Shown here in pieces: positions 3,809 through 6,486 of a stretch of DNA of 38,634 bases. Source of the DNA: Candidatus Saccharimonadota bacterium (GTDB taxonomy: Bacteria > Patescibacteriota > Saccharimonadia > Saccharimonadales > JAGQNK01); NCBI GenBank assembly GCA_020428105.1, contig JAGQNK010000013.1:1-38634 (forward strand), written 5' to 3'. A program made the translations under genes and the position numbers. The notes under the pieces are model-generated. The model saw only the letters and a program-made list of their open reading frames with translations. It searched no databases and was not told the origin of the DNA. Each line of letters opens with the position of its first letter. Position 1 is the stretch's first letter.

Positions 3809-4113
3809 AGGCTTTGATGTCAAAGACCTAAAAAGTATTAATAAACCATCAGTTTGTGTAAACCGACAATTTAAATTTTTTCCCTCACCTATTTATTAAG
3901 TTACGTTAATGTTTGCATTATAAGCTTATGTTAATTTGGATTGCAAGTACTTTTTTCAAAAACTTCATAACACCATAGCCACACTATTACATACAATATC
4001 TTATGCTGTTCAGCAAACTGTTCAGCAAATCTAAAAAACTGCACCTGTGTGCTGCTTAGGATTTCTCAACAAACTTGGTGAAGTTTTGCAGCTTCCCCAA
4101 AAATGGACTAAAG
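3809..4113. other. AT-rich intergenic region
   Basis: I see no gene here. It should hold the promoter of the beta-helix gene; TTTACA-17-AATACT on the minus strand, just upstream of 3823, is a weak candidate. It also holds a 12-bp tandem repeat. To its right begins the left inverted-repeat arm. Confidence 0.5.
4006..4029. repeat. 12-bp perfect tandem repeat
   Basis: CTGTTCAGCAAA occurs twice in direct succession (4006-4017 and 4018-4029). Each copy contains GCTG/CAGC-like dyad symmetry. It may be an operator or simple slippage. Confidence 0.6.
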
Positions 4114-4468
4114 GCAGAATTAGCGGCGCGCCAGTACCGTTTTTCTTTGGTTGCGCGGAGTGCAAACCAAAATAAAAGAACGCTGGATGCGCTCAAATTT
4201 CTCAATAAATTCGTTCTTGGTGAGTTTCTACGCCCACACTAGAACCTTTTTCCAAGACAAATACTGGCCTGAAGCTAAGCCCCGCCGCCTGATGGGCAAG
4301 TCTGCCCGCTGCGCCCCGCCAAAAAACCGCCTTTGAATTTTTGAGATTCCCCCGCCGAGATTTTTTTCAATTGAGAAAAGTAAGGTCTGTCGGGTCGGCT
4401 GCGCAGAGCGGCAGAAACGGCAGGGTTTTCCTACATGACTGGTTGTTGTTCTGTGGTTACATTCTTAA
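4114..4468 (+). repeat. Left arm of long inverted repeat around the MFS-ArsR cassette
   Basis: The inner part, 4349-4468 (120 nt), matches the reverse complement of 6027-6146 with only three mismatches by eye. The outer part, 4114-4348, is a decayed copy of the reverse complement of 6147-6387. Anchors include GCAGAAT (4114-4120), TTTTTCTTTGGTT (4140-4152, 13/13), CTAGAACC, AGCCCCG and CCCGCCAAAAA. The arm includes the last 12 codons and stop of the MFS gene. A reading frame at 4151-4336 has no support as a gene. Confidence 0.85.
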
Positions 4469-5663
4469 ATCGTCTTACACAACCACAACGAACAAGAAGC
4501 CAATAACTAATCGCTAACCCAACCGCCATAAATAAACCTTGTGCTAAAAATCCTGGTCGTAGTGAACCGCCAGCAACTATAATTCCTAAGATTATAGTAA
4601 GTGTCATCTTTGCAAACCTGCTGGCTAATGACATACCGGACAACACAGTTGCTCTTACTGAACTCTGTAATTCTTGATTTGCATAGTCGGAGACAATCGG
4701 ACGTTCTATATTGAAAACTCCCATAGTTGCTATAGCAATAATGATGACCAGTGTGTTCTGTGTCGCTAAAGCGAGCAAAAGATATCCAGTGATTGAGCCA
4801 AGTTTTATAAGTGCAAAGGCTTTCTCAAAAGTTAAGTAATCTTCCAGCTTGTAAACATAACGCTGCAATATGAAATTAACAAACAAGCCGAAGCTAATTG
4901 CGCCGCCAGCCCAAAAACTACTTACATTGCCGAGATTTTCAAAATGGATCGCAACTGTGCCATACAAGAAATATTCATTACACACAGTCATAAGTCCAGC
5001 TATTGTTAGGGCAAAAATTGTCTGGTTTTTCCGCATAAGGCTAAGTGTATTTGCCACCATTTCAAAGGCTTTTAGCTCTTGTTTCACAATAGACTTTTGC
5101 TTGGATTGATCTTTTGAACCATCGTGCAGGGTCAAGGAAATAGCTGTAATGACAAGCTGCAAAGCCACAGTTGCCAAGATGAGTGACACAAAGCTTACTG
5201 AACTAAACACTTGGTATACTATTCCGCTTACGATACCGGCAACAAAAAGCCCAGCTATGCCATTAGACAAAACAATGCTGCTTTGCTTTTTATAGTCTAA
5301 GCCTTCGTCTTTTGACGCTTCATATAGCAAGGCTTCGTTTGCCCCGCTGACCATAGACAGACCAATCGCGCGAATAATATTCATTACATACAGCCCGATG
5401 GTTGTCGGTGAAATAACCAAAGCCATAAGACCAATCGCACTGGTAAAGTATCCTAGCGCCATTGATGTTTTGCGACCAAACTTATCCGCAATAACTCCGG
5501 TTGGGATTTCCGATAAAAACACAGTGCCCGTAAACACGCTTTGCGCTATAACGGCGTGATAAAGTGGTACGCCTTCAGATACGGCGAATAGGTTAGTAAT
5601 GATGGTTGAAAAGTACATTCCATCTAAGAACTCAATCAATTTTAGTTTTGCAACGGTTTTCAT
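4431..5663 (-). CDS. MFS-family membrane transporter (probable efflux)
   Basis: A 410-residue protein with about 12 hydrophobic segments, the normal size for the major facilitator superfamily. Motif A between helices 2 and 3 is clear (GVIADKFGRKTSM). Such transporters use the proton gradient to move small molecules; pairing with an ArsR regulator suggests export of a toxic compound, but the substrate is unknown. The start ATG lies 2 nt after the ArsR stop, so the two genes are co-transcribed and probably translationally coupled. The last 12 codons sit inside the left inverted-repeat arm, and a second, inverted copy of the same tail (KNVTAEQQPVL, stop) lies at 6029-6064. This hints that the gene may be able to flip with its regulator. 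The cassette has no recombinase of its own. Confidence 0.88.
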   Translation of the reverse strand: MKTVAKLKLIEFLDGMYFSTIITNLFAVSEGVPLYHAVIAQSVFTGTVFLSEIPTGVIADKFGRKTSMALGYFTSAIGLMALVISPTTIGLYVMNIIRAIGLSMVSGANEALLYEASKDEGLDYKKQSSIVLSNGIAGLFVAGIVSGIVYQVFSSVSFVSLILATVALQLVITAISLTLHDGSKDQSKQKSIVKQELKAFEMVANTLSLMRKNQTIFALTIAGLMTVCNEYFLYGTVAIHFENLGNVSSFWAGGAISFGLFVNFILQRYVYKLEDYLTFEKAFALIKLGSITGYLLLALATQNTLVIIIAIATMGVFNIERPIVSDYANQELQSSVRATVLSGMSLASRFAKMTLTIILGIIVAGGSLRPGFLAQGLFMAVGLAISYWLLVRCGCVRRFKNVTTEQQPVM

Positions 5664-5665
5664 AG

Positions 5666-5980
5666 TTAATATGGACTTTTGCTCGCTTGTTCAAAGATGT
5701 GCTGAGTGTGCCTCAACAAGTATTCCGCAGCGTCTTTTGTAACATATTGATAGCAACGTGTTCCAACGCTGGTTGATTTAACCAAGCCAACTCGCTTTAA
5801 GGCTCTAAGATGATTAGAAGCTGTTGGCTGGGGGATACCTATTGCCTTTGAGATTTCCGAAACACAGCTTTCTTGTTTTGGTTTAGAAAAACTTTCCGAG
5901 TTCTCCGCAATATACATAAAAATCCGCAATCTAACGGGATTAGATAGAACTTTATAATATGTGGCTAGTTTACCATCCAT
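5666..5980 (-). CDS. ArsR-family winged-helix transcriptional regulator
   Basis: A 104-residue protein, typical length for the family. The DNA-recognition helix region reads IGIPQPTASNHLRALKRVGL, followed by the wing (STSVGTRCYQYV). The usual metal motif ELCVxxL is reduced to ESCVSEI with one cysteine kept, so metal sensing is possible but not certain. It likely represses its own promoter and the MFS gene 2 nt downstream. The start is supported by a near-ideal promoter whose predicted start site falls on or next to the ATG, which gives a leaderless mRNA. Confidence 0.9.
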   Translation of the reverse strand: MDGKLATYYKVLSNPVRLRIFMYIAENSESFSKPKQESCVSEISKAIGIPQPTASNHLRALKRVGLVKSTSVGTRCYQYVTKDAAEYLLRHTQHIFEQASKSPY

Positions 5981-5987
5981 TTACAGG

Positions 5988-6016
5988 ATTGTATCAATAT
6001 ATATTCTTAAAGTCAA
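5988..6016 (-). promoter_or_regulatory. Promoter of arsR-MFS with possible operator
   Basis: On the minus strand TTGACT (6016-6011), a 17-nt spacer and TACAAT (5993-5988) precede the start codon by 7 nt; TGA just before the hexamer makes an extended -10. ATTCTTAA (6003-6010) and its inverse TTAAGAAT (6027-6034) bracket the -35 region, and could be ArsR half-sites. The outer half-site is the edge of the right repeat arm. Confidence 0.7.
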
Positions 6017-6307
6017 ATATTTTATATTAAGAATGTAACCGCAGAACAACAACCAGTCCTGTAGGAAAACCCTGCCGTTTCTGCCGCTCTGCGCAGCCGA
6101 CCCGACAGACCTGACTTTTCTCAATTGAAAAAAATCTCGGCGGGGGTAATTCAGAAAATGCAAAGGCTTTTTGGCGTGGGGTGGCAAGCCTTTAGGCTTG
6201 CGTGGGTCGGGGCTGGTGTTCTCGTTTCAGGTTTTCAGCTTTTTGACATAAAATGGGTTCTAGCCTTGTCGTACAGAGGCACCATGGAGAAACTTTTTTC
6301 GGAAATC

Positions 6308-6329
6308 GGGCGCGAATGCGCCCTTTTTT
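6308..6329 (+). terminator. Rho-independent terminator, plus strand
   Basis: GGGCGC-GAAT-GCGCCC (6308-6323) is followed by six T. No gene on the plus strand now leads into it. It would terminate the MFS gene if the cassette were inverted. Confidence 0.75.
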
Positions 6330-6357
6330 CTTTGGTTTTGCGCAGCAAAACCAAAGA
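6329..6357. repeat. Perfect 13-bp hairpin
   Basis: TCTTTGGTTTTGC, a GCA loop, then its exact inverse. A decayed version exists in the left arm at ~4144-4170 (TTTGGTTGC... GCAAACCAAA). Confidence 0.8.
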
Positions 6358-6379
6358 AAAAGCCGCCCGACTGGGCGAC
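6357..6379 (-). terminator. Terminator of tRNA-Leu
   Basis: On the minus strand GTCGCCC-AGTC-GGGCGGC (one G-U pair) is followed by TTTTT, starting about 22 nt after the tRNA CCA end. Confidence 0.75.
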
Positions 6380-6401
6380 TATTCTGCAAAAAGTTGCAAT
6401 A

Positions 6402-6486
6402 TGGTGCGCGAGAGAGGACTTGAACCTCCACGCCTTGCGGCACAGCCACCTCAAGGCTGCGTGTATACCAATTTCACCACTCGCGC
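6402..6486 (-). tRNA. tRNA-Leu (anticodon GAG), CCA encoded
   Basis: The 7-bp acceptor stem pairs GCGCGAG with CTCGCGC, followed by A and an encoded CCA. The anticodon stem CAGCC/GGCTG encloses the loop TTGAGGT, giving anticodon GAG for CUC/CUU. The long variable arm (TGCC-GCAA-GGCG) is typical of tRNA-Leu, and the T-arm contains GGTTCAAGTCC. The gene borders the inverted-repeat cassette; tRNA genes are common sites for gene gain, but I see no duplicated tRNA end at the left side. Confidence 0.95.

Follow-up and report, generated by a model that had tools for sequence, protein, structure and literature searches.

The window analysed here, a stretch of 38,634 nucleotides from a member of the Saccharimonadales, carries next to a tRNA-Leu gene two adjacent genes, for an MFS transporter and an ArsR-type repressor, that are framed by long inverted repeats. 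The locus raises the question whether this cassette is an operon switched in direction by recombination between its arms, as a sequence-only reading had proposed, or a part of some larger element. The best overall explanation, and a probable one, is that it represents a decayed unit within a family of cassettes integrated at tRNA genes and associated with a large serine recombinase (LSR). Its membership in this group of small integrative cassettes from CPR bacteria is highly probable.

Chance similarity of the two arms is excluded (self-BLAST E = 2e-58 for 4140-4468 against 6027-6361, 75% gapped identity over about 330 bp). The segments 4314-4468 and 6027-6181 are inverted repeats with 88% identity over 155 bp without gaps, and the inner 120 bp (4349-4468 and 6027-6146) align end to end with exactly three mismatches, while the outer parts are related but decayed, with 50-70% identity per 30-column bin. 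In all these points the sequence-only reading was accurate, as it was in naming the two genes, in finding no recombinase between the arms and in treating the cassette as a discrete unit framed by them. The final codons of the transporter gene lie inside the left arm, and relatives of this transporter were detected, at the threshold used, in 3 of 392 other genomes of the order with 32-35% identity. An assembly artefact is an unlikely source of the arms because a cassette of the same kind is located on another contig of the same genome and more than 30 are present in other genomes, some of them single-contig assemblies.

The second cassette of this genome (910 kb in 63 contigs) was found by searching with the left arm, as an inverted pair on contig C4 beside tRNA-Arg, with a GNAT acetyltransferase, a 111-aa ORF without Pfam match and a SET-domain protein as cargo. 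A third, isolated arm-like stretch is located near the end of contig C8 (L038:3632-3719), without a detectable mimic of the kind described below. In genome G034, four consecutive modules follow tRNA-Leu(cag) in the order LSR, cargo, LSR and cargo, with inverted arms of 91, 100, 92 and 100% identity, respectively. The recombinases of this array are large serine recombinases of 529-532 aa with the Pfam domains Resolvase, Recombinase and Zn_ribbon_recom, and each window arm can be aligned, through its mimic, with the LSR-flanking repeat of this array.

A base-by-base comparison of nine LSR modules gave the plan of an intact unit, which reads tRNA CACCA, ir-LSR-ir', mimic'-arm'-cargo-arm-mimic, displaced tRNA terminator. 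One repeat of the LSR module starts at the CACCA ending the tRNA and the other at the CACCA of a convergent mimic, AAAAT-R-GGTTC-N19-CACCA, which exceeds the tRNA 3' end that it resembles by 4 nt (29 nt from GGTTC to the end of CACCA in mimics and 25 in tRNAs; other mimic spacings returned by the regular expression look, on reading the sequences, like mis-hits to inner GGTAC or CTCCA). The order past the convergent mimic is arm, cargo, inverted arm and then a further mimic, oriented as the tRNA. Near-identical inverted repeats enclose the LSR segment as well as the cargo segment. At the 89 loci with a facing tRNA, the LSR is directed toward it in 86 cases and away from it in 3; L256 and L203 belong to this rare second type, the cargo of L256 being on the LSR 3' side. 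In four loci (L028, L095, L101 and L102) the LSR frame crosses the terminal repeat into the antisense strand of the tRNA or into the next mimic, and the last residues of the LSR therefore vary with the location of the element. A promoter within the mimic (TAAAAT) was considered, but no consistent -35 element supported it. The features of the window copy are listed in Table 1 according to this plan.

Table 1. Features of the window copy, in window coordinates, and examples of the LSR leader RNA at a related locus
Feature	Position	Strand	Basis and remarks
Second putative LSR-module remnant, past the distal mimic	4095..4222	.	CCCCA ... TTGGTG; resembles LSR-flanking repeats
61-aa ORF apparently keeping the LSR C-terminal frame	4151..4336	+	..RSNFSINSFLVSFYAHTRTFF.. 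compared with LSR ..RSNFPKSSFLVRFYAHARTHF..; read by eye
Left (distal) cargo-cassette arm	4218..4468	.	Repeat alignment
Distal tRNA-3'-end mimic (att)	4218..4246	-	GGTTC-N19-CACCA, oriented as tRNA-Leu; 52.2 bits, E 7e-15
MFS transporter (efflux-like), cargo gene	4431..5663	-	MFS_1 2.7e-16; weak TetA(P) similarity
ArsR/SmtB-family repressor, cargo gene	5666..5980	-	HTH_5 7e-13; NF033788 above cutoff
Right (tRNA-proximal) cargo-cassette arm	6027..6284	.	Repeat alignment
Inner tRNA-3'-end mimic (att')	6256..6284	+	GGTTC-N19-CACCA, 29 nt, points at the tRNA; 56.9 bits, E 2e-16
tRNA-proximal putative LSR-module remnant	6280..6406	.	Palindrome from CACCA (6280) to TGGTG (6402-6406); self-inverse match
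tRNA-Leu(gag)	6402..6486	-	3' CACCA (TGGTG at 6402-6406 on +) is the proposed integration site, attB-type half; junction pattern
Leader RNA examples	L028:5990-6114, L028:9310-9439		Covariation; 12 further loci aligned

The distribution of the family was examined in two ways. A model of the arm end plus mimic, built from sequence only, was searched in the 393 genomes of the order, and the motif was detected in 75 genomes and in 44 of 156 genera, in most cases as two divergent copies separated by 1-8 kb; around forty loci were mapped. The second was a GTDB-wide scan with 16 LSRs as queries. Among the best 80 loci, which were examined, all records with a phylum-level name were CPR/Patescibacteria, the phylum of the seed, except for one MAG labelled Syntrophaceae. 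Enough flank was available for 61 of these 80, of which 54 showed inverted repeats flanking the LSR, 53 an adjacent tRNA and 48 both. An LSR facing a tRNA 3' end was found at 89 of 104 distinct loci, which come almost exclusively from CPR bacteria; the facing tRNAs cover 31 isoacceptor types, and no LSR was located beside a non-facing tRNA. The cargo is diverse, with 107 Pfam families across 105 proteins and no family in more than four of them, and includes restriction-modification systems, tRNA synthetases, SDRs, peptidases, methylases and exporters. Class I tRNA synthetases account for two of the cargo proteins and may represent spare or resistance-type copies near tRNA-targeted insertions. 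Viral contigs, phages and plasmids gave only remote relatives of the LSR, with best identities of about 25-39%, and no published description of the element was found in the open-licence full texts of PMC.

The CACCA of the tRNA and that of the distal mimic have the same orientation and flank the unit as direct repeats. The distal CACCA is followed by a hairpin like those found after the tRNAs of the same group. Within 60 nt, 13 of 29 distal flanks contain a perfect stem of 7 bp or more, compared with 7% of random segments, and the folding energies of the distal flanks match those after tRNAs. Empty and occupied sites could be compared in two cases, neither of them base-exact. The genes flanking the G127 element are 487 bp apart in G085, with the tRNA present in opposite orientation and no att, and the region past the G012 element is located about 200 bp from the same tRNA-Leu in G043. 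The corresponding comparison of G034 with G054 and G065 gave no empty site, its flank being absent from both. In several genomes of one genus (L175, L177 and L178, compared with L102), tRNA-Leu(cag) is opposite relative to the same flanking genes, as if flipped. LSR-driven integration at the tRNA 3' end is very probable, and the tRNA would be the integration site of the cassette and not a chance neighbour. In the proposed reaction, the LSR would recombine the attP at its own 3' end with the tRNA 3' end (attB, GGTTC-N15-CACCA); integration would regenerate the tRNA and shift its native terminator to the far side, and the mimic left there would become a docking point for another, stacked unit. 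Two comparisons show apparent transfer of the element between families of Saccharibacteria. L107 and L123, located at the same tRNA-Lys in different families of the order, are 86% identical in element DNA and 58% in the downstream flank, and the LSR modules of L028 and L112, also from different families, are 87.5% identical in DNA at tRNA-Leu and tRNA-Arg, respectively.

The possibility that ir-LSR-ir' and arm-cargo-arm are two independent modules, moving separately in an integron-like manner and meeting only at tRNA ends, is unlikely but deserves the most weight among the alternatives. About 15 loci carry cargo cassettes without an LSR, some arrays contain two cargo cassettes and one LSR (L112), and one S51 peptidase gene is common to differently composed cassettes. 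The LSR module is, however, always beside a mimic wherever the flank is readable, and the loci without an LSR carry palindromic stubs resembling deleted modules; in addition, the direct repeats formed by the distal mimic and the tRNA are those that a single integration of LSR plus cargo would leave.

On the reading as one integrated element, the excised form would be circular, with a pair of identical attP sites in inverted orientation, each arranged as arm - GGTTC-N19-CACCA - ir, that separate an LSR half from a cargo half, and recombination between the inverted repeats would keep the arms alike and flip the cargo relative to the LSR. No excised circle was seen, the viral contigs giving one remote match. 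The arms are indeed kept alike within a unit, as had been proposed for the window: among 32 units, the median arm identity is 0.985 within and 0.59 between units, and the arms are closest to their own partner in 28. Inversion of the cargo within the family is likely, judged from its arrangement, because the cargo is oriented toward the tRNA in 20 cases and away from it in 20, and because the SDR gene shared by L107 and L123, whose LSR modules and tRNA-Lys are collinear, is in opposite orientation, having moved from the LSR-side arm to the distal arm. The 86:3 bias in LSR orientation is evidence against the two-attP circle, since two identical attP sites alone would not give it and selection or an effect in cis is needed. 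We infer from this bias that integration or survival favours the attP at the LSR 3' end, one possible cause being that read-through from the tRNA into the LSR is selected against. On balance, the circle with two attP sites and cargo inversion is slightly favoured.

The same observations bear on the proposal of a phase-variable operon, in which MFS-ArsR would flip by homologous recombination between the arms and so switch the expression of the exporter. Long and similar arms, the even cargo orientation and one shared cargo gene inverted between different genomes (L107 and L123) make inversion plausible in the family. The logic of a switch is not evident, as the identical arms and the operon's own upstream region move together with the cargo; no outside promoter was identified, the arms frame cargo of any kind, and the outer arms of the window copy are decayed. 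We regard the phase-variable operon as improbable. The window MFS-ArsR pair is not an evident switch, and no sign of present flipping was seen in this copy, which has lost its recombinase and whose outer arms have decayed. Rather than a stand-alone invertible operon, the cassette would be the cargo half of a tRNA-integrated serine-recombinase element.

Two further alternatives fare worse. If the arms were passive intergenic repeats, providing shared homology by which naturally competent CPR cells take up cassettes and exchange them by homologous recombination, the shuffling of cargo between units would be explained, but the arm identity between units is too low for efficient exchange and the LSR and the precision at tRNA ends would be left unexplained, which makes this reading very improbable. 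A DDE-type transposon or MITE, suggested by the long inverted repeats, has hardly any probability, as the enzyme found with these elements belongs to the serine recombinases, insertions occur at a single fixed position of the tRNA, the sampled units contain no DDE transposase, and in place of a target-site duplication the ends share only the tRNA-like CACCA, inverted and not duplicated at neighbouring ends.

Within the tRNA-integrated family, the window copy appears to be a stranded and decaying unit, whose LSR modules have shrunk to two palindromic stubs. These palindromes, each about 120 bp long with ends of the CACCA/TGGTG type, match the ends of LSR modules in relatives; an end of the tRNA-proximal one resembles the inverted repeats that flank the recombinase there, and window 6115-6352 aligns with the arm-att-ir junction at L028:5680-5910. 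The sequence-only reading had placed the terminator of tRNA-Leu against the unit and had measured the arms at about 360 bp. The tRNA gene and the repeats are in place, but the supposed terminator (about 6280-6406) and the outermost left arm (about 4095-4222) are better read as the two stubs, the left of which appears to retain a reading frame for the C-terminus of the LSR. The outer arms show the lowest likeness among the 32 units (0.61), and the segment for the LSR leader RNA is missing. This genome carries no close intact LSR, the best relative being 37% identical and not framed by repeats. In the sister genome G001, this tRNA-Leu is present with 100% identity and the sequence after it is unrelated, the contig stopping 135 bp past the tRNA. 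Reduction of both LSR modules to stubs would have left MFS-ArsR stranded behind tRNA-Leu, and gene conversion or an earlier inversion best accounts for the alikeness remaining in the inner arms.

Two helices, arranged as a-b-a'-b', are common to 14 leaders located directly ahead of the LSR start codon in intact units, and this pseudoknot-like arrangement may represent a pseudoknot or alternative folds. In the alignment, 97% of cells are paired and 13 of 26 pairs show double changes. The covariation is 0.44, compared with 0.19 after shuffling and 0.12 or less after sliding, a comparison in which the helices were chosen from the same alignment and are somewhat favoured by the slid control. No Rfam match was found for this leader.

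Taken further, the family may represent minimal integrative elements across the CPR that dock at dozens of different tRNA genes, form a 2-micron-like circle in which two inverted attP sites let the recombinase and cargo halves flip, stack on mimics into arrays and have their LSR controlled by a pseudoknotted leader RNA not described before; we propose this full picture tentatively, at slightly less than even chance. CPR bacteria have very small genomes and poorly known routes of gene gain, for which the element is a concrete vehicle. Divergent GGTTC-N19-CACCA pairs behind tRNAs are a searchable signature, and the recombinases, which target natural tRNA ends, are candidate integration tools for the CPR.

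The closest known systems are the cassette chromosomes of staphylococci (SCC, for example SCCmec) and Enterococcus (ECC), which likewise combine LSRs, of the Ccr type, with variable cargo, integrate at the 3' end of a conserved gene and stack. The best NCBIfam matches of the LSR are CcrB, CcrC and CcrA, at 7e-34 and weaker, with 117 bits against a cut-off of 900. ECC carries ccrAB recombinases and is integrated at the rlmH 3' end, with 50-bp att direct repeats and a circular form (PMC6222049). In contrast to the rlmH target of SCC/ECC, the CPR element is inserted at many tRNA genes (89 of 104 LSR loci), is 3-10 kb and not tens of kb long, encodes one LSR, is found in CPR hosts, and possesses a second, inverted att and inverted arms of 100-370 bp around both LSR and cargo. 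As in other LSR elements, the intact units encode the LSR and carry the att core at both ends, the LSR itself being absent from the window copy. Serine-integrase phages (A118/LI integrase) share the domain order Resolvase, Recombinase and Zn ribbon with the CPR enzyme, whose best solved relative is the A118 integrase 4kis. In A118/LI-type integrases, the ZD motif of attP is displaced outward by 5 bp relative to that of attB (PMC3783163), comparable to the shift of GGTTC by 4 nt between mimic and tRNA. The CPR element differs from these phages in its lack of phage genes, its long inverted repeats and its tRNA target. The inferred circle has the layout of the yeast 2-micron plasmid, which is divided into halves by an identical pair of inverted repeats that each contain a recombination site; the plasmid employs a tyrosine recombinase (Flp) and replicates extrachromosomally, whereas the CPR element integrates at tRNAs. 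Integrons and shufflons are also arrays of exchangeable cassettes bounded by recombination sites, which are inverted in shufflons. Both use tyrosine recombinases, and the attC sites of integrons are directly repeated around cassettes that usually carry a single gene. The CPR recombinase is of the serine type and not an IntI integrase with attC sites, but its arrays resemble both systems in their exchangeable, site-bounded cassettes and resemble shufflons in the inversion of the sites.
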